A DNA stretch of 64,000 nt from Ectocarpus siliculosus (taxonomy: Eukaryota; Sar; Phaeophyceae; Ectocarpales; Ectocarpaceae), in assembly GCA_000310025.1 (NCBI GenBank), contig FN649759.1:640964-704963 (forward strand). Direction: 5' to 3'. The notes beneath the pieces were generated by a model that saw only the letters and a list, made by a program, of their open reading frames with translations, had not been told where the DNA came from and searched no databases. Made by a program: the position numbers and the translations under genes. The first letter of the stretch is position 1, and each line of letters starts with the position of its first letter. This document shows, piece by piece, positions 1 through 63,145 of this stretch.

Positions 1-310
1 AAATTTTGAAAAGGGCCATTTGGGGAAAAAAAAAAAGGAAAAAAAAACCCCCTTTTTCCAGAAAAAAAGCTTGGGGGGAAACAATGATTCCCGAAAAAAA
101 AAAATTTCCCGGGAAAACCCTTTTTTTTTGGGGGGATTTTTTTTTTTTCCCCCCAAAAAAAATTTTTTTAGAAGATAAATTCCCACGGGGGGGGGGGCCC
201 CCCCCCCCCCCCAAAAAAATTTTGGGCCACCTTTTTTTTTTTTTGGGGGGCCCCCCCCCCCCCCCCCCCCCCCCAATTGTTGCATGTACCCCCCCCCCCC
301 CCTCCCCCAA
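1..310. other. Homopolymer-rich, probably low-quality sequence
   Basis: Almost the whole stretch consists of runs of A, T, G and C of 5 to 30 bases, unlike anything further inside the window except the flanks of the N gap near 24.5 kb. It ends abruptly where normal sequence begins at the first recognisable exon (about 319). I read it as poor consensus at a contig edge. Open frames through it, such as 6-359, should not be taken as genes. Confidence 0.8.
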
Positions 311-318
311 TTGTGCAG

Positions 319-3300
319 GGAATACTGGAGCAGCGAGGGGACCCCGTGACAGCAAATGACGCCGTGCAGGAGCTCTTGGAGCGTGCCAGGCGGCTGTGCA
401 GAGATCAGGAGAGCAAGAGGGCTGAGCTTGAGGCGAACTACCTCGAGTCCTTCAACCTTGCCAAGGAGAATGGGACAGGTACTGCTGTAGGCTGTAGGTA
501 GCGGTAGCGTGGCATTATGAACGCTTGAGAGTGTTGTTGTGGTGACGTTCTACGTTGTTTTGCAAACCTGAGTTTTTACGGGTAAAGATTGCGGAAGCTG
601 AAGTTGTGACCTTCATCTCCGACAGACGTTCTCGGGTGTGTGTGTAGCGCCACTTTCCACTCGCAGGTCCACACAGCTTTTGGAGTGCTCGAATCTGTTT
701 ACACTCGTCCCTCTGCGCAACACCTGCTAACTGGAGTGTCGTCCTGCTACCATGAGTGATGCTCTGCTGCGTTTCTCTGTAAGCAACGGCCGAGATGAAA
801 CTAACGGGAGTGAGAGACGGATCCATCCCCGTAGCTCCACAGTTTATTTGAGTGTACCTTTATAGGGTAAGTTAACCTGTGACCACGGGAATCGACCGCG
901 TCGAGTGTTGGACCAGTACGGACATACGAAGGTACTGGGTAGAGAGAGATCGGAACGGTTTTTAATGTGAAGACAACAACAACACAACAACAACAACCCT
1001 TGACGTGGAAATATGAATATTTGGACTATATTAATACTGGTACGCATGTTTACGTTTGCCGTGACGCGTGTCCCCACCCGCCCCTCAAATAATGCATGCC
1101 CTTGTGACGTGGTGCACGCCGCAGACGACGCCGAAAAGCAGAACGCGATCAATCGCTTGACGAAGCTTATCCTAGAGTCGGAGAAGCTCGTACCCATGAT
1201 GAAGGACAACGATCAACAGACCATGGCCATTGTTGTGAGTTGTTTCATGGGGTCATGAGTCCACGCTCTTGCATTTTGTGTCTTGTCATAACGAAGTTTG
1301 CACGTGATTGGTGTCCGTGCTTCCTACTTGTAGTAGTAGTAGCAGTATTTTCCAAGCAGCCCATACATTCGAAGCTGGATGGGACTACCATCGCGACTGC
1401 TGTGTTTGAAAATGTAGTCCTGTCCTGTTTTGATGCAAGCCTGTGCTGCCAGCAGACCTTGCACCCGTCTCGTCTATTACGCACTCCTTGCAGTTCGTGC
1501 TATTGTTCTAGTGGAGATGCGTGTGTCTATGCCTATGCACACAGACACTGAACGTGGTTCAACAATCTTGCGCCTCTCGTATGTAGCGACGTTCACGTGT
1601 CTTGCATTTGCTGCTGCGACAACTGCCATACTGTGTTGTATTGTATGCTTTGTATTGCAGTTGATGCGTTTGCATTTGTACAAATCTACTCATTGTAGTC
1701 GAACGATCTTTCTCTACTCACAACGACGTTCACGTGCCCGGCATTTGCTGCTGCGACAACTGCCCCTATGTACAATGTTGCATCTTAGATGGAGATCGCG
1801 AGAGCCAAGGCGTCGCTGTTGACCAACCTCCGGCGGCGCCTACGCGAGGTTTCCAGGCTGCAGACCGACATCGGGAAGATCCGGAAACACCAGGAACTCG
1901 TGGGAATGGCTTGGGGGCAGAAGGTGAGACCACTTCCCCTCCACCTCTAACGCCTTACAATGTACCATGGTTTCCGCAACTTTCTCGCACGGACAAGTCG
2001 CCTATGCTGCCTCGCCCAATTGCTACCACCGTGACAAAGGCTAGGCATGTGGGTGGGTTTTGTGGCGGAGCAGGAGGCTTTTTGTTTCCGAGCCGCCCGT
2101 ATGCTCATGTATCTCAACTGCTGGTAGTACTGGCCGGATGTTGTACGGAAGCTGTAGATACGGTTGTTGCGCTTTTTTGCCTGTTTGCCGTTTTTGTGTG
2201 TTGTTGCCTTTGCACTACGGTCGCCATGGGCTCTACCGCATATCCATCGTCCAGCTTGGTGTTCCTGCCGGTCCCCGCCTTTTTTTTGCGTTTTTGCTTC
2301 TCCAAACGCTTTCGTCTTGTCTCTTTTAAGCCTTTTCTGTAGCCTTGTTCTTTGCTTGGTCGTCCCGTATCTCTCAACTTCGGGTTGACGCCTATTATAG
2401 CTCCTGTATGCCTTCCGTTGCCCATAGCTTGGTGTTTCTGCTTGTCGAAACACTTTGATTTTCCTCTTTTAGCTTTGTTCTTTGCCATCCTTGGTCGTCC
2501 CGTCTCTCTACTGCATGCCTTCCGTCTCTCTGCTGCATGCCTTACGCCTCTCTGCTGCATGCCTTTCGTCTCTCTGCTGTATGCCTTCCGTTGTCCATTG
2601 CGAACATGTTGCGGTGTGCGTGTTATGGCCTACCTACCTCTCAGGAAGAGCAGTTCGAGCACCTCGGGAAGGTGGCGAGGATGCCTGCTGCCTACAACGC
2701 CTTCCTTCGTGAGGTCTTACGGCAACGTCGGTTCCATCAGGTACCTCTCGCACCCTCGCAGCTTGCGGGGCTCGCCTTGCTGTATGAGGTTGCCTCCTTA
2801 TTCCTACAGCATTCCTTTTCGGAAGAAGTGGCAAGAGACTTGTACGTCAGTTGAGGGCTGGCTTGTGGACACGGGACTGTACATGTGATGGTGGGGATGG
2901 GCTGGGTGTGACAGTACGGAGACTCTGTAACCGTTAGCCTTTTGGCATGATGACGTCATGGCGACCCGCAGCAACCCTCCGGTAAGCCCTTCTTGAGAAG
3001 TACCAGGTATTGGGCACAATCCGAACCACACCATTGCCATCGTTTCCGCCTTCTCCGCCTCCTGTTGTGATTTCACAACTTCTATTGTGATTTCTCAACT
3101 AATACTGTGATTTCCATCTTCTGTTGTGGTTTCACATCTTTTATTGTTTATGCCACAGGATTTCGAGGCGACAGTGTCGGACTTCTGCACCTCTGTGGCC
3201 GCTCTGCGATCGTCTGAAATGGTGTCGAGGCAGGAGTTCATCCAAGCACACCTTGGGAACCTCCCGCCCGCGTTCCTAGAGGTACGCGATTTCCTGCACT

Positions 3301-6300
3301 GTTCAACGGCAATTGACGTCTCTCTCGCATGCATCTGTCTGGGTGGTTTCGCGGCAGATCTGGCGTGCTAGCAAGAGTCTTAATGTTGCATCCTACAGTA
3401 GATGAGCTGAGGCTCCCTCTTTTGGTAATTGCTGCACTGCTGTTGTGTTCTACAGCAGGATGCTATTAATAGCTCTCTTGGCAATGCTCTACAGGCAAGC
3501 GCTGTTCGATGCCATTGTACAGCGCTGAAATAGTTGCCCCCCCCCGCCCTTGTCCACCACCAACGCACGATCCCCTCCTGTTTCTTGTCCGACTATTTTT
3601 CGACCACGACGCCCGCAGATGGCACCGGGCCTCCGCAACATGCCGCCGACCTTCAACCCCGGCCCGATCACGCCGCTGAGACCGGGAGAGCTCCCCGAAG
3701 TTTACCCCGACCCTGCTGCCGCCGGGGAAGACGAGGACGGTGGCGGCGAGTCGGCGATCAAGGAGGCGGGCGTAGCCGGTAGTGGTGCACGTAGCGTCAC
3801 GCCCGAAGCGGCGGCAGCGGTAGTAGTGGCGGACACATGTGCAGCATCCGCGGTAGTGGCTACGGGGTCGGCTGCGATTTCCACGCAGACAACAGCGGCT
3901 GCGGTGGACGGGGCGGCCGTCTCCACGCAGACAGCGGCGGCGGCGGCGGTAGGTGGGGCGGCCGTCTCCACGCAGACAGCGGCGGCAGCGGTGGACGGGG
4001 CCGTCGTCTCCACGCAGACAGTGGCGGCGGCGGTGGACGGGGCCGCCGTCTCCACGCAGACAGCGGCGGCAGCGGTGGACGGGGCCGCCGTCTCCACGCA
4101 GACATCGGCGGCGGCAGTGGGCGGCGCGGCTGTCTCGACGCAGACGGCAGCGGCGAGCGGGGCGGCAGTCGGGACACAGACTGAGCGAGACGGGCTCCGA
4201 CCTAGAAACGAGGGCGAGAGCGTGGTGGGTGATGGTGGCAGGGGGGGCATCGATGATGACGTTAGTAGAGGCACAGCAGACGTTGCGGCCGCAGAAAGCG
4301 TTGAGGCCCGCGGCGAGGGCAATGCACCGGTTAAACGCGTGGAGGAGCGAACAGCCGGCCCGGAGGTCGCCGTCGACAGGTCGATTTCCGCCCTGGAGGC
4401 AGAGAACGCTCGTCTCTCCGAAGAGCTCGCCAAGGCTCGATCGCGGCTCGAGGAGCTCGGTACCGCCGCTGCGGGAGAACCGGCGGGAGCACCGGCGCTA
4501 GAGTCAACTCCATCGGCGGCAGAGCTGGCGGCGATAGAGCCGGACCAACGTCCAGGAACGACTGCTGCTGCTGCTGCTGCTGCAGATGGTGGTGGTGGTG
4601 GTGGTGGTGGTGGTGGTGGTGGTGGTGTTGCTGTTGTCCCCGGTGCGGTGGAAGGAGAGGACCCAGCCCCGATGCCGAGAGGTGTGGGCGGCGAATTCGC
4701 ACGGCCCCGACGCAGCTACAGCGACGTCGTGGTGAGCGGAACTGGCCGCAGGGAATCGGCACCTGCTGCCACCGCCGCCGCCGCAGCAGCCGCAGCAGGA
4801 GGAGGCGAGGTGCGCGGTACAGGCGGCCGGCGCGGGTCATCGAAGGAAACCAAGAACCAGTTAGCCGCGTACCGGGCCGGCCTGACAATGCTGGTCAAGT
4901 TGACCGACCAGCACAAACTTGCTGACCAGCAGCGTGGCGGCGCTGCGGTGGGTGTGGCGGCGGCGGCGGCGGCGGAAGTGGCATCGGCGGTACAGCCGGC
5001 GATGATCGAGGACCCGGCAGGAGGTACGAGGGCGACGGCAACTGCAAGAACGGTTGCTGCCGAGGACCCGGCCTCGCCGTCTTCCGACTACCATCCGTCG
5101 CCCGGTAGTGACCGCCCGTCACCCACGACTGCTGTGGACGGGCAGGCCACCGCCGGCGGCGGCGGTGATGTTGGTGGTGCGGCATCGCCGGACGCGAAAG
5201 AAGCGTCGGAGAGAGAGTCAACAACGGTCCCCGAGCGAGCTCAAGAAACACACCCAGCACCGGCAATAACAGCCGTAAAGGTAGACAAGGACCACGCCAC
5301 AGCGAAGCCAGCGGCGGCAGAGGCCACGGCACCAGGAGAGGACAGGCAGGGGGGAGCGAGGCCGGCGGGAGAAGATTCATCTTCATCTCCCGACCACAAG
5401 GAAGCGGTGTCTCCCGAAAGGGAGGCGACGACCGCGGTAAGTACGGCGACCGGGGGCACCGCGGTGGAAACGGCGGGGGGGGGGCTGGTTGCAAGGCCAT
5501 CGGCGTCTCTCGGAGGCGTCGAGCGGATAAGGCGCGCGGCGGACTACGTGGCAACTCATCTTCAGTACAACCATGTGAGGGCTGTTTTGCTTTTGTTTCC
5601 AGGTGGTTGTGACTGTGTCTTTGTTGCGGAAGAACGGATGATGGATGACCCTTGGAGATGAAAGCATGAGAGGGTGGTTTTGGCTTCATGTTGGTGATTG
5701 TCGTTGCGTTTGGACTGAGCGGGGTGGGAGGCGCTCACCCTCCTTGTCCGTGTGCCCATCCGGCAAGTCGTGTCGTGTCAAAACGATCTTGAGAACTCTT
5801 CTGCAAATGGCTAGCTTATCGCTATCGTTATATGTGCCCTGCAACAAAGATCCACACGCACCTTTCATCCCTTCGTCGATACACTTGCTGACGAACGGAG
5901 TCTCGTACACGGGCTGGAAGCAGGAAAATCACAGCCTGGTCTTGTCTTGGGCGCTGCTCTTGTTGTATTGACGGGGGCGTAAAGTTGGCTGGCCGAGGCA
6001 CTGCAACCGGGTAGGTTGCACTCGTACCATCTTTTTCCCGAGTTGGCCTGCTTCTTGAGGAACTTGCCTGTCTTTCACTCCGCATCGAGTCAATATAGTT
6101 GATGTGGTCAGTTCGCCCACGACCTTGTAGGTTGATGCTCCTCTCCCTCACTCACCAAGGCTTCGAGCTTGGCTGGGTGGGGTCTTGTAGATCGTGGCTG
6201 CAATCCTGGTGGCCAAGGTTGTTCAAGGAGTGGTTCTGGCGCCAGGACCATGCCTTGAACAACCCTGGCGACCAGAATCACAGCCACGATCTGTAAGACG

Positions 6301-8503
6301 CAATCTGCCAATCTCGAAGCCTTGGTGAGTGAGGAAGAGGCGCATCAATCTGTAAGGTCGTGGGCGAACTGACCACATCAACTATATTGACTCGATGCGG
6401 AGTGAAAGAAAAGAAGTTCCTCAAGAAGCAGGGCAAGTCGGGAAATAGGCGGTACTGTACGAGTGTAACGTACCCGGTTGAAGTTCCTCGGCCAGTCAAC
6501 TTTACAACTTTACACCCCCGCCATTATAACAAGAGCAGCGCCCAAGACAAGGCAGCGCTGTGCCTTTCCTGCTTTTAGCCCGTACACGAGACTCTGTCCG
6601 TTGGCAAGTGTACTGTATCGACGAAGAGAAGAACGTGCGTGTGGATCTTTGCACTTGACTAGAGCAGTGTGTGTCTCTGGCTATGTAGTGTGTGGCTTAT
6701 CCTTACTGGTAGTACGTGTGACAACGACGTGCTTTTTGGTACATGGTAGTCGCTTTCGTTGGGTTGGGTGACCCGTGCTCCAAATGCGCATTTTTTAACT
6801 TCAACCTTGGCATGATATCACGTATGTCAGACGATTCTTTTTTCGAGGCCTCTATCTCGTTAGTGTGTCTCTGACGCATGATGCCGCCCTCTTAATGAAG
6901 CCTCATGCGTTAAACTACGGCTACACATTGTAGGTGTACGTACTGTGGTGAACACTTCGTGTCCCCTCCTCCGACAACTACAACGAGGGTGTGTGTATGT
7001 TCATATGCCACCTAGAAACTACAACTGAAACTTTTCCATGAACACCCCCGTTTGATTGCTGTTTGGAGAAAGCCGCGAAAGAGTGCGCGGCACCAGAGAC
7101 TTGTCGTTACTGCCGCACCCCCCCCTCCATACACCTCGCCGAACACCACGCTGATGCCCCCCCCCCCCCCATCCCTCTTGCCCCCGGCGGCATGTCGTTT
7201 TTGTGCACGCTGCCTCTGCCTCTGCACGTGCTGTACCGATGATGACCACGACGACGCCGACATGGCAGGCTCTAGCTGCCGTACCGCGAATCTCGATGTG
7301 CTCTTTCAGCGTACAGGTATGATATGTGCAGCATCGATTGAGGTGGTAGTGCGGTCTCTGTCTAGACGCCTCGACTTGATGCCTGTCGGCTAACGGTTGA
7401 TGATGATCGATCGCCTCATGCCTCATTAATCATGACCTCCCGGCCCCGAGAGCTCCTCGGGCGAACCATGCGAATCGTGCCTAGTAGCCTGTTTCGTGGT
7501 ACTGCACGGTGCAAGGGTCTCAAGCACATAACGCACGACTATCTCTCTCACAGCGATCGAACCAGACTACGTCTACAATAGTTTCCGTCTAAACCCATTG
7601 CCGCCGGAAGAGTCAAGTCAGGGGTACAGAACCCCACCACAACCCTTCCAGTCGATTTTACTTGCGGTATAGCAGTACCGTTTGAATCCGACTGCTGTAG
7701 AAGAGTTTGTTTACCCGGGCAGCTTGGTCATGGCGTCATTACTTGCAGCGAGAGAGCTCACGACCACGACCCCCCCCCCCCCCCCCCTTCATGGGCGGCG
7801 TCGGGGGCGAAATCTATATCCCGGAAATCCCTCTGTTCTTGGCGAATAAGGGGGGATCTCCCGAAGGGTCGTCGGGGGGGCCCGTGGTTCTGGGGTTCCA
7901 CGTTAACTGGCCGAACCGGTACTTGTCCGAGGATAGCATCAACAATGCCCGCGAGGCGTTGGGTGCTTCTCCGGCGTACATATTGGGCCGCATCATCCTG
8001 GTCGAGCAGCACGTGGCCTCTGAGGTGAGTCGAGTCACCATGGGAGGGGGGGGGGGTGTACCCACGTAAATGCATGCCGTAGTCACTAGGTTATTGGCGT
8101 CGCATGCCGAGACGGAGCGTTTGGCTTACGATTTCGTGGAATTTCGCGGGTGGTTGGTAACCTTAAGCTGTCTGTCGCCCAAATTATCTTGAAGAAAGGG
8201 ACAAGAGGTAATACTTTCCCCTAAGTATGCGTCTGGAGCTGATTCTGTCCTCAAGATTTGGTGATGGTGAGGTCGATGCGTTGGGCTCGCCACGACATGT
8301 GACTTAATTCTGTCATAGCTCACCGGATACGGAGACCCCAAAGCCAACGAGATGCCCGTCTGATTCCTTTTGCGCTTTCCCCTCTCGCCGCGGCCTGTGC
8401 GTGCCTTTCTGCGTGTGTGTATGCCACGAAACAGGAGCCCAACCCGTACAACGTTGCTCCGAATACGGTGTACTACGTCCTCACCGCAGAAAACGTCGGC
8501 TAG
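319..8503 (+). CDS. ATG11: ATG11/FIP200-type autophagy scaffold protein (3' part of gene)
   Basis: Scaffold of the autophagy initiation complex, which brings kinase, cargo receptors and membranes together. Exons read by eye: 319-478, 1125-1234, 1789-1923, 2645-2740, 3159-3281, 3619-5574, 7749-8024, 8435-8503; phases agree and give 974 residues and a stop. Exons 3-5 and the start of exon 6 match the ATG17-like region (PAYNAFLREVLRQRRF, then RQEF, LPP and a PGL..MPPTF end). Exons 7-8 match the C-terminal ATG11/claw domain (IPLFLA, FHVNWPNRYL, YILGRI, EPNPYNVAPNTVYY). Between them lies a long low-complexity region with eight TQT motifs (residues about 297-396), a coiled coil (about 463-490) and Ala/Gly tracts. 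A possible LIR is SYSDVV. The N-terminus is outside the window. The acceptor at 7748, before a C run, is the least certain border. Intron 6 carries the foldback at 5845-6651. Confidence 0.85.
3877..4182 (+). repeat. In-frame tandem repeat coding for eight TQT motifs
   Basis: Within exon 6 of the ATG11-like gene a 42-45 base unit is repeated. It codes for units of the type AVSTQTAAAAVDGA. Eight TQT tripeptides are seen, the first at 3883-3891 and the last at 4174-4182, spaced 14, 15, 14, 14, 14, 14 and 12 residues apart. The last is GTQT, the first ISTQT, the others VSTQT. TQT is the core of the dynein light chain LC8 binding motif; binding here is inferred. The frame is fixed by conserved domains on both sides. 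Confidence 0.9.
4561..4628 (+). repeat. Trinucleotide tract (GCT then GGT) in exon 6 of the ATG11-like gene
   Basis: About eight GCT codons are followed, after a short CAGAT break, by about thirteen GGT codons, coding for an Ala run and a Gly run. The tract lies after the coiled coil in the disordered middle of the protein and is a likely site of length variation between individuals. Confidence 0.9.
5845..6651. repeat. Long foldback (inverted repeat with almost no loop) in an ATG11 intron
   Basis: The left arm (from caaagatccacacg at 5845) returns as its reverse complement in the right arm (ending cgtgtggatctttg at 6651). Matching blocks include the cgtacacggg / cccgtacacg pair, a block around ggcgctgctcttgtt, and a long block around tatagttgatgtggtcagtt at about 6093-6112. 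The centre is near tggcgcca at 6237-6244, so the arms are about 400 bases each with practically no spacer. Arms differ by scattered substitutions and small indels. No transposase frame and no clear target duplication were seen. It could be a foldback transposon or an inverted duplication; as part of an intron it would form a long RNA hairpin. Confidence 0.85.
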
Positions 8504-55350: not shown

Positions 55351-57108
55351 TCAAATGTCATCAAGAAGATCAACGTGCTCCATCATGAAGGTCTCGCAGC
55401 AAGGGAAGTACATGTCCACAAATTCTTCAAAGGCCGCACAATCGCCGGCCTTGATGGTGACTCGAGGTTTGACGCGACGTTTTTCGTTTCGTACTGGCCC
55501 CTCTTCGCTACGAGCCCAGGCCGCGCGCTTTGCTATGCGTAGTACATCTAGCACCTTTGAGAAGACGGACGGCTTACAATCGATGATACGCCTTCCGTTG
55601 CTGTCGAGATCTTTCTCCGCCACCGGCCATTGCTCTTCGTTGAACCAAGCGGCAAGAGCTGAGTCAGGGCAAATCCGCAAGGTAGAACGCAGAGTAGTCA
55701 TCCTGGTCCCACGCACGTTCAGCTCTACCACGTCATCTTCTGTTCCTGTGGCCACCTCTGGGCCATACACCGCCGCCACGGCCGTGGCGCACGCCATCGT
55801 CCTGGCTTTGGCAAGGGAAAGTTCATTTGCGGCTTCTTGGAGAAGCTTCTCCTCCTCCATCAATGAGTCAGCAACCAAATCCCCAAAAGAACGAACATCG
55901 TCCGCAGTCTTCACAGGTGCCCCCGGTCCCGTTTTGTCTTCAACAGCGTGGTCTTCTTGTTTGGTCGAAGAGGTTGGCGTGTTCGGCTTTGGACCCACAC
56001 GAAATGTCTCGACATCAACAAGACGGCATCCGTTGAGCTCAGGAAATGGGGACCCGGTCGGGGCATGGTACGTCTGATTTCCCGTTCGCACAGCGCTCTC
56101 CGTCCCATTCCAGACCACGTGTAGGTCACGTCCTTCCCCAAAGCAGGGTCCATATCCTTGACCACGATAAACGGCGTAGGCAGAACGCCCATCCTTGACG
56201 CCCCACTTCGTCGATTGATATACGCCCGAATGACGTCCCTCACCGTCCTTGAGCATGAACAAGAATGCTCCCGGGGAAGGACTGTAGTAGCCGGCATCCG
56301 AATCATACATGAAGTCGTCCCACGGAATACTGGAGAACCCTCCAATGATACAGTCTGTCGCAGCTGCCCCGCGTCCCTTCACTCGCAAGAAGGTAATCGT
56401 TGTCGGCGAACTTTGGTCTCCACAACGATCTTGGCAGGCAGCACCTGTCCAGCCATCACGGGAAGCACGATAGAGCAGTTCCAACTCACCAGGATTCCCA
56501 GGACACCAACGTTGAACGACGGCCGTCAGCTTGCTGGCCTCGTGAGGATCAAAGGTCGTGGTTCCCCCCTTTATCGTCATCCCGACGGGAGCCAGTTGCC
56601 CCGACAGACCGAGAACACGCGCAGTATGGTGAAAAAGGTCGGGCTGATCATCGCGGGACATATCAGCCTCGCCCGTTGCGGTACCGTTGGCCGCGTTCGG
56701 ACGAAGCAGGAGGGCCTCGATGAGGTGCTTGACGCATATCGGTGACTCGTCAAGCACGATACGGCCATCTGCATCCCGGGGAACACGCTTGTCCCACTCA
56801 GCCTCGAACAGGTCTCCCAGTGCCCAAGTCGAAGACGGTTGTTCTCCTTTCCCCTCAAGGACCGAGCGACGAACGGTTTGATGCGAACCGCCAACGTTCA
56901 ACTTCACAATTTCTTCTTTCGAGTCTAAAGGCTTGATGATGCCAACCTCTGTCATGTGCGCCTGGAGCTCCTGCCATCCCTGGTCGGTGTCGTCCCACGC
57001 CTGATCCATCTCCCGCCGCCTCTGAGAAAGAGCGGCCTCTGTTGCCCGAGCGGAGGCCTCCATTGTTGCAGAACAGGTGTTCTTCTCGTTCGACTGGAGA
57101 CGAAGCAT
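55351..57108 (-). CDS. T1/BTB - TLDc - T1/BTB protein, copy 2 (intact)
   Basis: A single open frame of 585 residues. I chose the ATG at 57108 (MLRLQSNEK) because copy 1 starts the same way (MLLHSNERK); the frame is open for 93 codons further upstream. Residues 20-55 look helical and charged. A KCTD-type T1/BTB domain spans about 66-137 (VKLNVGGSHQTVRRSVL, WDKRVPRDADGRIVLDESP). A TLDc domain spans about 190-372 (LLYRASRDGW, CIIGGFSSIPW, GAFLFML, YGPCFGEGRDLHV). A linker with TSSTKQEDHAVEDK follows, then a second T1 domain at about 458-572 (VELNVRGTRMTTLRSTL, CKPSVFSKVLDVLR, FVDMYFPCCETFM). TLDc domains are known V-ATPase and oxidative-stress factors; T1 domains oligomerise and recruit partners such as cullin 3. 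No intron is needed, in contrast to the neighbours. Confidence 0.88.
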   Translation of the reverse strand: MLRLQSNEKNTCSATMEASARATEAALSQRRREMDQAWDDTDQGWQELQAHMTEVGIIKPLDSKEEIVKLNVGGSHQTVRRSVLEGKGEQPSSTWALGDLFEAEWDKRVPRDADGRIVLDESPICVKHLIEALLLRPNAANGTATGEADMSRDDQPDLFHHTARVLGLSGQLAPVGMTIKGGTTTFDPHEASKLTAVVQRWCPGNPGELELLYRASRDGWTGAACQDRCGDQSSPTTITFLRVKGRGAAATDCIIGGFSSIPWDDFMYDSDAGYYSPSPGAFLFMLKDGEGRHSGVYQSTKWGVKDGRSAYAVYRGQGYGPCFGEGRDLHVVWNGTESAVRTGNQTYHAPTGSPFPELNGCRLVDVETFRVGPKPNTPTSSTKQEDHAVEDKTGPGAPVKTADDVRSFGDLVADSLMEEEKLLQEAANELSLAKARTMACATAVAAVYGPEVATGTEDDVVELNVRGTRMTTLRSTLRICPDSALAAWFNEEQWPVAEKDLDSNGRRIIDCKPSVFSKVLDVLRIAKRAAWARSEEGPVRNEKRRVKPRVTIKAGDCAAFEEFVDMYFPCCETFMMEHVDLLDDI

Positions 57109-60100
57109 GGTGCCACCGTTGTCTGACGGTCGCGCGTTGAGGATACGTACTGTATAGAGCAGTCCTATGAATCGTACTGCAGTAGATGGCCGCGTTGGCA
57201 GAGGCAACGTGCGCAAGCTTGTGGGGTCAACTTTGCTGCGAGAATTGTTGTCAATGTGGGAACGTAGCCTCTTCGAATACAAAACGAATGTCTCGAACAA
57301 CTGTTCGTAGGAACCGGAATCACTCATTGTCCGTGATGAGTTGTAGCCCGATAAACTATTCGGGGGGATAACCTTAAGCATGGGCACGATATCGTACGAT
57401 GTGATCGTTCAGCTATCAGAAATTCACGAGCCCTGCCCGAATATGGCGGGTCGATACGTGACGATACGGGACTACTGTAGACGTACCAACGTCAAGTCCA
57501 TGCCATCGGCTTGCTCGGATTGCCCACTTTTCCCTTGCGTGGTTCAAAATATTCCCTGCAGTGGCTATCACGTACTTGAGGCTGGTACCTGAGTTATTAA
57601 TGCTCAATGTCAAGAACAGCGTTCGTGTCACAGCCACAACATTTGTCAGAATGAACACGGAAATAAAATTTGTCTACACCGCCAAGTTGCGCTCGTCTTG
57701 GGTATATTCACTTGTTTTCCCTCCGCAGCAAAGTTCTCTTTCAAGCAAATAAAGAAGTGAGCATTTACCCTCTTGGTTCTGGACGCCCAACAGGGGACAC
57801 TTCGGGGACACAGCACTCAGAGGTTTGTTTATCGCACTGTGGTCGCCCTGGCCTCCGGTGCGTAAAACGCATGTGAAAACCCTTGGTCTATATATTTGGA
57901 CCATCTGTCACGTCTCACGGAATGACATGTAGGAATGTTTCTAGCAGTTTCAAGTGTACTAGTTGATCGTGTTAATTTTGAAAAACAGTCGTGTGGTCCC
58001 TATTGCAACAGGGCTGATAATTGGTTGTCGATTTTGGGTGCTGACGAATACTCGACCAACGGTTTCAACCGCGGTTGCTCCCTTTTGTGGCGCTGCATTG
58101 TATGTACGTTGACTTCCTTGTGCAATAGTTCTGGTTCGTCTTTTCGAGTCTCTTTGCTCGTGGGCGGGTACAAATGCTTAAAGAGATCAAGCGGACACGA
58201 AACCCAAAACGCACCAACATCAACGGCCTGAAACAGCGTGACGAAAGGTAAATTCACGTTTTCGCATCAAAATTCGGTGATCATGGTGGAGAAGAAGCGT
58301 TCGCCAACCTAAATCTGATTCGCCGCCAATCCCAACGATGTGGCTAATGATAATACGGCGCACACAAACCTTCCAAAGTCTTCGCAGGTTTGACGCGAAT
58401 AGAAAGGCACATCGTCATCAGGTGTGTCGCTTGACAAAGGACTGAGTATCTTGTCTCCTCATGGCCATTCATCGACCTTTCAGGGCCTCTAGCCAGTCTT
58501 TGTCGCCGCCACGCGGAAACTGACGCAAGCGTAGTGCTCGCACCGACATGTGGCTACCGTTGTCCTCGGTCCCTCCCACGTTTTACCTGAGTTGGAATAC
58601 ATTGATTGTAGGATGATAACCGTTCGACGAAAATCTTCGCATGCTTTGTTCTCGCCAGTGGCACCAGCAACCTTTCTGTTGCGTGTGTTTTTTAGAACGC
58701 GACGGGTCTCGGAAGAATGACGATCGATACCCTTGGCCGTTGCGAGAGAGGGATATTTTCTCTGTGACTTGCGATTGATCACAGACTTTGGCCATGCCGA
58801 CACGGCCATCTCTTCGATGAGAAAGAGGTGGTATCTACTGCAATATTTGCAGTACGATTCAGACATGAATTCTGCGACAGGGGGTGGTGAGGCGACATCC
58901 CCGGAGTTGACGGCAGACATGGCGTTGGCGACGTCTGCCGGAAAGATGCTGACTCGGAGCCTGAATAAATGAGTAGACTAGATGTTGATCAACGTCTCAC
59001 TGCCCATGCTTGAGAATAAGGAAGACGGGCACATTTTGTAAGGAGTATGCCATGGCAGCGTTCATGGCAGCAGGATCACTTCAGAGCATCATGGGAAGTC
59101 ATAATGTCATGAAATTTGGCGTCAACCGGATTGCTGCGGGTCCAGATTCAAGTACGCGTAGGGGCGCCCACATGATATTCTTTTCCTCTCCTATATCGTG
59201 ACAAGAAACGCGATACTTTTTGCGCCCCCTCATTTTTTCACCAGGTGATCCTGTGCTTCATTGTTGTTCCATCATCCGTCGCGCTCATCTTTGACGATTT
59301 CGTTTTGCCCAGTGATACTGCTCCCTTTTTGGCCCATACTGATTGAGTGATAATCTATTGACTCCAGGGTCAAAGAGTCAGTGCACGAGTCAAGCCACGA
59401 AGAGATCTATCGCATGCTGAGACTATCGCTAAAGCTGCCGCCGAGGAAGCAACGGCCTCCGTGCAAACGTTTGGATGTCCGAAAATTTCATCAGGACTAC
59501 TGTAGTGCATTTTGTCGGGGGTCCGGTTTCGTTTGGTCGAACCACGGTCCAAAGTGTATGTTCTAGAAACAGTTGACAAAGGCGTCGTCTGCAGGTTTAC
59601 TGACGGGCAAGGCAACTGACACGGTTGAAAGTATTTTCCCGCGGTACGAGCTTTCTATCGCCTGGTGCCAAGTGCTCAGGATTGTCTCTTGTTGATCAAT
59701 TGCTAAACTCCCAGGTTGGAGACAGCCTACATACATGATACGAGCCAACCTTTCTTACCAACTACGTTTGGCGATGCATCTCAAATCTCTGGCCAACCCG
59801 CAACCGGCGTTTGTCGACACGCCCCTATTTGCGGTGTAAACTACGCAATCGGCGAAAAGTAACCCGTGGCGCTCCCTCGCCACCCCGGAACAGTTCGAAG
59901 ACCGACTGCACTCACGCAAATGGCATCTTCGACTGAGATACATTCGTTTGTTTCCCGCCGATCTCCTACTATGGTCAATACGCTTGCAGGAGAGGCATTC
60001 AACACGGACAGTACTCCTCCAATGAACAACTCTCGCCTTGACGACAAATGAACGTTGTTTCCTTCTCAGGTGGCATATCGCTAGACCAACCGGACTCCTA

Positions 60101-61129: not shown

Positions 61130-61815
61130 ACTTTTCCATGGAAGCCCGTGGAACGTTCCGTTGAATTCCATGGAAATCCATGAAAGTCTGTGAAATTTTC
61201 ATGATTTTTCATGGAACGTCCAATGGAAGTCCATGGATATTCATGGAAGTTCATGGTCATGAACTGTTCATGGAGGTCCGTGGACGTTCATGACATATCA
61301 TGGAGTTCCGTTGAAGCCCACGGACTTCCACGGAACTATGTACAAGGAATGTCACGAACGTTCATGGACTTCCGTGAAAAATTCATGAAAGATTAAGATA
61401 TCATGGACGTTCATGAGGTTTGTGTCATGAAACACTGTATGGAAGCATTCCATTGCGTGTCATGGAACGTTTCACGAAAACATTTCGTGGACGTTCATGA
61501 CAGCGGGTTCATGAACGTCTATAAACGATAACGGAATGTGTCATGGAACGTGGCGGTGGACATCAATGGAATATTTCATGGACTCTCATGAGTGCCCATG
61601 AAATATTCCCTGGATGTCTACTGAACGTTTCATGGAAGTCCATGGAAGTCCGTGGCATATTTCATGGACGTTCGTTAAAATATTCATGGACTTTCGTTCA
61701 TGGATTTTCATGGACGTTCATAGACGTTCATGGCCAACATGTCATGAACTTCTATGAAATGCTTTATGAAAGTTCATGAACGTTCATGAAGTTTCATGAC
61801 ACATTTTATGGACAT
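61130..61815. repeat. Degenerate CATGGA-type repeat block, left
   Basis: The words catgga, ttcatgg, cgttcatg and ccatgg occur about every 10 bases throughout, with many substitutions, as in a decayed minisatellite with a unit of about ten bases such as ttcatggacg. The block has sharp edges. Because CATG is its own complement, hairpins are possible everywhere. Open frames inside (rich in Trp, Met, Phe, His) merely translate the repeat. Confidence 0.85.
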
Positions 61816-62519
61816 TCATCAACACCACCACACACTGCTGTCGTAATAGTTTTTGGGATTCTCACTTGGAGGGAAAACGGCATGGCTCGTAACCCGTGGT
61901 AGTTTTTTCACGCTTAGATCATTGCTGTGTTCGCGCGGGTCTGAAGCGGCGCTCGACCCCGAAGCTTTTCCTTTGCCCCTAAGAATAGGTCCACGTAGTA
62001 GACGCCCGGGAAGCACGGGATCCTCGAAGAGAGACGGCACGGAACCGACACTGGAATACCAGCAGCCCTGACGGTGAAGAGAGAGAGACCGACACAAGAA
62101 AGGAAGAAATCCGGGAAGCAAAGTCGGGTCTCCCACACTCATTGGCCGCTTTGCTAAACAAACCCCCCATGGGGCACCCATGAGCAACCCATGATTCATG
62201 GGCAGCCCATACGGACCGCCAATGAGTGAGTGCCCTTCAACCGGAACCAGTGTGCTCTCGTAAGCAATACGTTCTCTGACTTGGGAGGGGCTTTACAACG
62301 AGCGGCGAATAACCCAAACACTGACCCTAACCCCAAACCCAAGCCCACGCGATACATACGTGCTGCGTTCGCGTTGGGTGGCTTGGTTCTACGCTGTACC
62401 GGTGGCTAACTTCGAGGTTGATATGCCGGTGGCGAAGCTCTAGGTTGAAGTGCCCAAGGTGGGCACTTCGTGGGCAGTTCATAGGTAGAGTTTGCGTATT
62501 ATCTGACACTATTGTTTTG
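61816..62519. other. Unique core between two CATGGA-type blocks
   Basis: This 0.7 kb segment lacks the ten-base pattern of its flanks. It holds a cccatg-rich patch (62165-62210), a short actgaccctaaccccaaaccc stretch near 62320 that recalls degenerate telomere sequence, and a perfect small hairpin (aagtgccc / gggcactt at about 62448-62468). Minus-strand frames of up to 126 codons have no recognised domain. Confidence 0.5.
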
Positions 62520-63145
62520 TTATGAAGTTTGATAGGAAACATGCCATGATATCCATAGACTTCCATGAAGTATTTCATGGGCTTGAATGAGCGCCCATGA
62601 CAATTTTCATGAAATCGTAAGGAACGTTTCATGGAGATCCATGACATTCCATGGACGTCCATGAAATTCCATGAAATTCCATGAAATTCCATGAAATTCC
62701 ATGGACGTCGATGGAACTCCATGGAATGATACGTGGCCTGCAATAGAAGTGTATGCAGTTCCGTTGAATTCCATGGAAGTCCATGGTTTCCTTGAAAAAA
62801 GTGCCTCGTGAACATCCACGAACATTCATCACTGTTGAAGGATGCCCACGGTTTTCGTTTGTCGAACAACATTTCAGCTTCATGGGAAGGTGACGTGGAC
62901 GTCCGAGGAATGTTTCATGGACTACCGCCATGAAACGTTTCGAGGAATTTCATGGACGACTTCCATCGACTTTTCGCTGCTTCCATGGAATTCCATGGAC
63001 TTTTATGGAATTCCATGGACTTTTCATTGACATTTTCAAGAAATTTCATTTCCGTGAAGAAAGTTGATGGAAGTCCATGGACCGTTTCGTGGAAGTCCAT
63101 GGAAGTTCGTTCGTTCATGGTAGTCCATGGAATTCCATGAAATGC
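62520..63145. repeat. Degenerate CATGGA-type repeat block, right
   Basis: Same word family as the left block (ccatgga, ttccatg, tccatgg). A nearly perfect array of a ten-base unit, attccatgaa, appears about four times at 62658-62702. The reading here is mainly of the ttccatgg type where the left block favours catggacgttc, so the two blocks may be in opposite orientation. Confidence 0.85.

Follow-up and report, generated by a model that had tools for sequence, protein, structure and literature searches.

In the brown alga Ectocarpus siliculosus, a gene predicted to encode an ATG11/FIP200-type autophagy scaffold carries a minisatellite in frame, in which TQT, the anchor tripeptide of clients of the dynein light chain LC8, is present eight times. 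The gene lies on the forward strand of a 64,000-nucleotide stretch of contig FN649759.1 (positions 640,964 to 704,963), hereafter the window, in whose coordinates positions are given. Our preferred explanation, to which we assign a probability of roughly 0.45, is that this coding minisatellite may have made a multivalent array of individually weak LC8 sites. Judged from the sequence, we somewhat favour LC8 binding by avidity over a repeat that is purely neutral; a ladder with a dedicated structural role is possible but unproven.

The initial annotation of the window had reported eight TQT tripeptides within about 100 residues, 12-15 residues apart, and the codon positions confirm this. The forward frame at 3619-5574 contains exactly eight TQT, with codons starting at 3883, 3925, 3970, 4012, 4054, 4096, 4138 and 4174 and spacings of 14, 15, 14, 14, 14, 14 and 12 residues. 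Independently of the motif count, Tandem Repeats Finder detects a 42-bp repeat at 3880-4160 (6.6 copies, 85% matches, score 386), and the array contains every S/T-Q pair and every QT pair (eight of each) of the 652-residue exon. Because the array arose by tandem duplication, the eight TQT cannot be counted as separate events; what can be counted separately is a single founding motif, the amplification of that motif and the fact that two diverged copies have retained it. The exon as a whole is rich in Ala (23.8%), Gly (13.5%), Val, Thr, Glu, Ser and Pro, matches no Pfam family above cut-off and, by its composition, is probably disordered. The Leu-heptad segment described earlier as following the array is present as well (ISALEAENARLSEELAKA at 4384-4437), and the heptad region gives a weak SOGA match (residues 252-306, E = 0.027, below cut-off).

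The long exon is unlikely to be open by chance, as none of 2000 random sequences with the same dinucleotide steps remained open over 1956 nt. The array is also spanned by two open antisense frames (343 and 337 residues), and in a six-frame comparison of copies 1, 3, 4, 5 and 6 one antisense frame was as little changed as the sense frame (1.70 amino-acid differences per pair each). These antisense frames are not decisive for the strand, and the array is read in the sense direction because the exon chain joins in one open reading frame.

This chain comprises eight exons, which join into a single open reading frame with one stop at its end, and all seven introns run from GT to AG. The last two exons joined match the ATG11 family of Pfam (PF10377, E = 3.5e-9, 37.3 bits, cut-off 22), each by itself being below the cut-off (18.4 and 12.6 bits). 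The exons before the long exon, together with its first residues, match the ATG17_like family (PF04108) at E = 2e-9 and 37.9 bits against a cut-off of 43; the match spans profile positions 226-351 of 355. The sequence lacks the start of the gene, the 9.2 kb directly upstream of the window reading N. The presence of a probable ATG17-like end and an ATG11 C-terminal (claw) domain in one open reading frame bears out the initial call of an ATG11-like scaffold, and the gene would accordingly be classed, on domain matches, as of the ATG11/FIP200 type, incomplete at its 5' end. A comparison of the claw domain with PDB sequences returned no match up to E = 10. ATG11 is counted in the core autophagy machinery by a review of autophagy in algae (PMC11449223). 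The direct join from 5574 to 7749 is the simplest model, and the 2.2-kb intron that it implies may hold further exons.

A binding partner is predicted from the same genome. Ten exon-level matches to PF01221 were found, and a gene on contig C84 matches this family at E = 1.0e-22. Its product aligns with dynein light chain 2 of PDB 1pwj across residues 36-80. The two are identical from residue 53 to residue 80, a segment that includes Phe62, Tyr65, Phe73, Tyr75 and Tyr77, which are described as lining the LC8 groove (PMC3078936). Over the compared residues 36-80, the genome thus appears to have a canonical LC8 with a conserved groove, to which the known LC8 binding rules should carry over.

The spacing of the sites points in the same direction. 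With an 8-residue motif, the linkers are 6, 7, 6, 6, 6, 6 and 4 residues long. Linkers of 6 and 9 residues are reported to give homogeneous LC8 complexes and those of 3, 30 and 41 heterogeneous ones, and 12 and 16 may already be long (PMC10046861); by analogy, the array spacing would suit in-register LC8 stacking, near that of well-ordered ladders. Individual weakness has precedent in Drosophila ASCIZ, where QT5 and QT6 start 14 residues apart, QT4-6 are reported to be weak as single peptides (11-20 uM) and better together, and the peptides of QT4, QT6 and QT7 are given as 10-20 uM (PMC5963919). Good motifs placed on a leucine-zipper dimer are reported to bring LC8 binding to below 10 nM (PMC3078936).

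From these elements the following mechanism can be proposed. A 42-bp coding minisatellite would have expanded in the disordered middle of an ATG11/FIP200-type scaffold, converting one TQT site into an eightfold array in which each copy alone would be a weak LC8 site. Pairing through helical parts is known for FIP200, and on a scaffold paired in this way, eight sites in register with linkers of 4-7 residues might capture LC8 dimers through avidity. From the ATG17-like part to the claw, a pair of chains would thereby be laced alongside each other, which would stabilise the dimer and space the claw from the rest. The initial annotation had also considered a tie to dynein; pairing is more likely than such a tether, since LC8 reportedly binds in a symmetric manner and does not link different clients to each other (PMC12057147).

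The points that weigh against LC8 binding concern, first, the quality of the single sites. From -5 to +2 the cores read AAISTQTT, AAVSTQTA (four times), AVVSTQTV, AAVSTQTS and AAVGTQTE. According to one survey, LC8 sites tolerate Val or Ile at -3 and Ser at -2, hydrophobic residues larger than Ala at -4 are unknown among them, and Pro, Asp or Glu are favoured at +2, where Ala and Val are not (PMC6607443). The array has no Asp at -4, no Lys or Arg at -3 and no Asp, Glu or Pro at +2 except the Glu of copy 8, and in one site +2 is occupied by Val, although hydrophobic residues are said to fit badly at this position. The nearest tested peptide is VSVSTQTA of KMT2C, a measured non-binder (PMC6607443, Table 1), from which the usual core AAVSTQTA departs at -4 and -5 only. 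In the same source, RSVSTQTG of CIZ1 binds LC8 and NDISTQTS of rotavirus VP4 binds at 4.2 uM.

To place the sites on a scale, a home-made motif matrix was built as a rough stand-in for LC8Pred, distinct from the published LC8Pred matrices, with 25 binders, 27 non-binders and background frequencies from general knowledge. The binders were 18 of the 19 binder rows in Tables 1 and 2 of PMC6607443, where a duplicate of MUC4 was left out and four weak binders were scored apart, and seven of the nine rows in Table 1 of PMC5746249, from which a duplicate core and a peptide of 32.7 uM were excluded. Of 43 non-binder rows, 27 were used; those dropped had no usable anchor or too few residues before the anchor, or were two SCRN2 rows with TQV. 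Leave-one-out areas under the curve were 0.87 for the full score, 0.81 for the flanks and 0.76 for the relative (binder-minus-nonbinder) score. The full scores of the array sites are 6.3-10.1, compared with medians of 10.1 for binders and 6.4 for non-binders, and the flanks score above 73-98% of random flanks with the same exon composition. By the relative score, seven of the eight sites are at or below the 16th percentile of the 25 known binders. AAVSTQTA falls below ASCIZ QT4, QT5, QT6 and QT7 by this score, AAVSTQTA and AVVSTQTV fall below all six ASCIZ motifs scored, and ASCIZ QT1 and QT2 exceed all array sites on every score, with QT5 also above AAVSTQTA on the full score. Judged by sequence, the motif flanks would therefore be mediocre to poor. 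Such weak scores do not exclude an LC8-binding array, because ASCIZ QT4, QT6 and QT7, the 10-20 uM peptides, score lower on the full score (4.2-5.5) than all eight array cores. In the LC8 motif scoring that the initial annotation had proposed, here with the home-made matrix, the sites fall between binders and non-binders.

The second set of adverse points concerns the origin of the repeat, and here a neutral explanation has to be weighed: slippage in a GC-rich, loosely constrained linker may have amplified a chance STQT, with LC8 binding, if any, being without a role. We consider this nearly as likely as the array of weak sites. The initial annotation had argued that TQT was kept by selection while the linkers varied. 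In copies 1-6, the STQT block shows 0 of 72 nucleotide differences against 18 of 180 in the linkers (p = 0.002, a statistic which, like those below, treats the copies as independent, which tandem duplicates are not, and ignores mutation bias). To align the units for these comparisons, an additional GCG codon in copy 2 was left out and copy 7 received a two-codon gap; copy 8 was represented by its first four codons. The contrast weakens when copy 7 is added (p = 0.018) and disappears with copy 8 (p = 0.41). The block is constant even at silent sites (third positions 0 of 24 in STQT and 12 of 60 in the linkers, p = 0.016), as expected of recent copies. Since it is constant as DNA, protein-level selection does not explain the constancy in copies 1-6, which mostly reflects recent duplication. 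The array exon also holds other simple repeats (CTG, TGG and GGC tracts, poly-Ala runs and a run of 13 Gly), which, like the weak flanks, fits a neutral origin and counts against an LC8 array.

Other observations speak against pure neutrality. In copies 7 and 8, the three changes in TQT codons are all silent (p = 0.017 against random single changes), and the spacing fits LC8 stacking. The linker changes are mostly silent too (12 of 19 codons, p = 0.004), so that some protein-level constraint is possible, and the whole array stretch may be weakly constrained as protein. TQT (3 of 3) and linkers (12 of 19) do not differ significantly in their share of silent changes (Fisher p = 0.52), and the comparison of synonymous and non-synonymous changes among units consequently did not uphold the claim of selection on TQT itself. 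The most variable position of the unit in the protein is +2 for LC8, directly after TQT (T, A, A, V, A, S, A, E).

The rest of the genome (189 Mb, 492 contigs) was searched for relatives of the gene and of the array. The array protein gave 19 scored candidates. The window itself was the one strong match, five others were weak (E 0.49-2.5), and none of the forward frames of more than 80 residues at these five loci has more than one [TVIS]QT; a comparable array was thus not found elsewhere by this one search, in keeping with a neutral repeat. A whole-genome search with PF10377 found only a second gene with the ATG11 C-terminal domain, on contig C24 (C24:1676544-1679729, match at 1501-1686, 36.5 bits), and missed the window's own claw, whose two exons score 18.4 and 12.6 bits. 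We read 22.7 kb of C24, the first 19.5 kb being upstream of the claw-domain locus. In forward frames of at least 70 residues across this region, up to and past the claw and with shorter exons not listed, no TQT array occurs, and the QT-type sites are scattered, at most two per frame. The lack of an array in the listed frames of this second ATG11-type gene favours the neutral explanation and weighs against the LC8 array. A stretch on contig C31 was considered as an ATG17-like relative (PF04108, 25.5 bits, below cut-off); it has matches to 63 Pfam families at E <= 10, including many coiled-coil families, and was rejected, as the PF04108 genome search is unspecific, with matches also in four of 14 control genomes. 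One scan of the ATG17-like part against viral contigs found no relative.

The array could also act in ways that do not involve LC8. ATM/ATR-type kinases might act on the eight TQ and so link DNA damage to autophagy by way of the ATG11 scaffold, a reading that we hold to be improbable and that is drawn from the sequence pattern. The long exon has no S/T-Q outside the array, as this reading would have it. Against it, conservation extends past TQ to the second T, which is needed by LC8 and not by these kinases. An S/T-Q cluster domain is defined as at least 3 S/T-Q within 50-100 residues, and eight TQ in about 100 residues, four of them within 50, exceed this definition; the definition is loose, and more than 25% of yeast proteins are reported to meet its 100-residue version (PMC3564818). 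In a yeast, Mec1-Rad53 is reported to be tied to DNA-damage-induced autophagy (PMC10744610). Alternatively, the Ala/Val/Gly repeat itself may be functional, as a spacer or as a condensate-forming low-complexity segment, with TQT incidental. The Ala/Gly-rich exon and the mostly silent linker changes (12 of 19) are compatible with such a role, to which we attach very little probability, as condensation has no positive support and STQT is the least variable part of the unit in copies 1-6.

At the other extreme, a true LC8 ladder seems unlikely, somewhat less so than the two preceding readings. Eight LC8 dimers would join two ATG11-type chains into a rod, the length of which would depend on the number of minisatellite copies and could change rapidly in evolution; such a ladder would be this lineage's own counterpart of the tethering by AMBRA1 in animals, possibly switched by LC8-blocking TQ phosphorylation. 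The interpretation given in the initial annotation is partly supported, by the ATG11/FIP200-type gene, the canonical LC8, the suitable spacing and the TQT precedent of AMBRA1, and loses ground on the mediocre to poor flanks. If the LC8 array is real, the autophagy-initiation scaffold of this lineage would have LC8 as one of its direct structural components, its valence would be set by a rapidly evolving DNA repeat, and the system would have converged with AMBRA1-LC8 and the Nup159 ladder. If it is not, the locus is a clear case of a coding minisatellite mimicking a well-known interaction array.

The features of the gene are collected in Table 1. Window positions 1-310 are homopolymer-rich and apparently of low quality, and adjoin the ~9.2 kb of N upstream. 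The intron before the claw exon contains a foldback (inverted-repeat) element of ~730 bp at 5880-6612, with arms 83-94% complementary; sequences similar to parts of one arm (69-83% identity) occur at three further sites of the genome. Farther along the window, a 685-residue open frame on the reverse strand (55354-57408) encodes a BTB domain (PF02214, 31.6 bits) and has a weak TLDc match below cut-off, and a cluster of 10-bp and 20-bp tandem repeats of the type CATGGAAGTC occupies 61210-63139.

Table 1. Exons of the predicted ATG11-like gene and elements of its long exon (window coordinates).
Feature	Position	Strand	Remarks
Exon 1 in window	319..478	+	In frame with later exons when joined from base 321; AG at 317-318; 5' part of gene missing
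Exon 2	1125..1234	+	AG/GT borders, frame continuous
Exon 3, ATG17-like region	1789..1923	+	AG/GT borders; part of joined PF04108 match; alone no PF04108 match
Exon 4, ATG17-like region	2645..2740	+	AG/GT borders; alone 14.8 bits to PF04108
Exon 5, ATG17-like region	3159..3281	+	AG/GT borders; inside joined PF04108 match; alone no PF04108 match
Long exon 6, with TQT array	3619..5574	+	652 residues; in phase with neighbours
Array of eight TQT	3880..4182	+	42-bp minisatellite copies 1-7 and diverged copy 8 (GTQTE)
Short heptad (coiled-coil-like) stretch SISALEAENARLSEELAKARSRLEELG	4381..4461	+	~67 residues past last TQT; read from sequence
Exon 7, ATG11 C-terminal (claw) domain, part 1	7749..8024	+	Alone 18.4 bits to PF10377
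Last exon, claw domain, part 2, and stop TAG	8435..8503	+	Alone 12.6 bits to PF10377

With its probable ATG17-like region, probably disordered exon and subsequent ATG11 C-terminal domain, the predicted protein resembles the ATG11/FIP200 (RB1CC1) scaffolds. To our knowledge, no plant, fungal or animal member of this family has a TQT array. In the accessible parts of the open-licence literature, we found no report of LC8 bound to ATG11, ATG17 or FIP200. The likeness to S/T-Q cluster domain proteins lies in the density of S/T-Q, the kinase link here being hypothetical. Among LC8 clients, ASCIZ/ATMIN likewise has many TQT, several of them reported as individually weak and two 14 residues apart; it differs in being a transcription factor with diverse motifs and linkers of 3 to about 40 residues, whereas the linkers of the present array are nearly uniform. 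In the Nup159-Dyn2 (LC8) ladder of yeast, five LC8 dimers are described as stacked on two chains, an arrangement like that proposed here; Nup159 is an unrelated protein with five sites rather than eight, and the algal array consists of near-identical DNA repeats with putative LC8 sites. The closest functional parallel may be AMBRA1-DLC1 (LC8), in which an autophagy-initiation protein is reported to bind dynein light chain through two TQT 12 residues apart (PMC9551033). LC8 has been reported with AMBRA1 (PMC8526019), autophagy is described as induced by an overexpressed AMBRA1 mutant unable to contact dynein light chain (PMC11625884), and DYNLL1 is listed as a ULK1 interactor (PMC7331686). AMBRA1 is a different protein in a different complex, with two such sites where the algal scaffold has eight.
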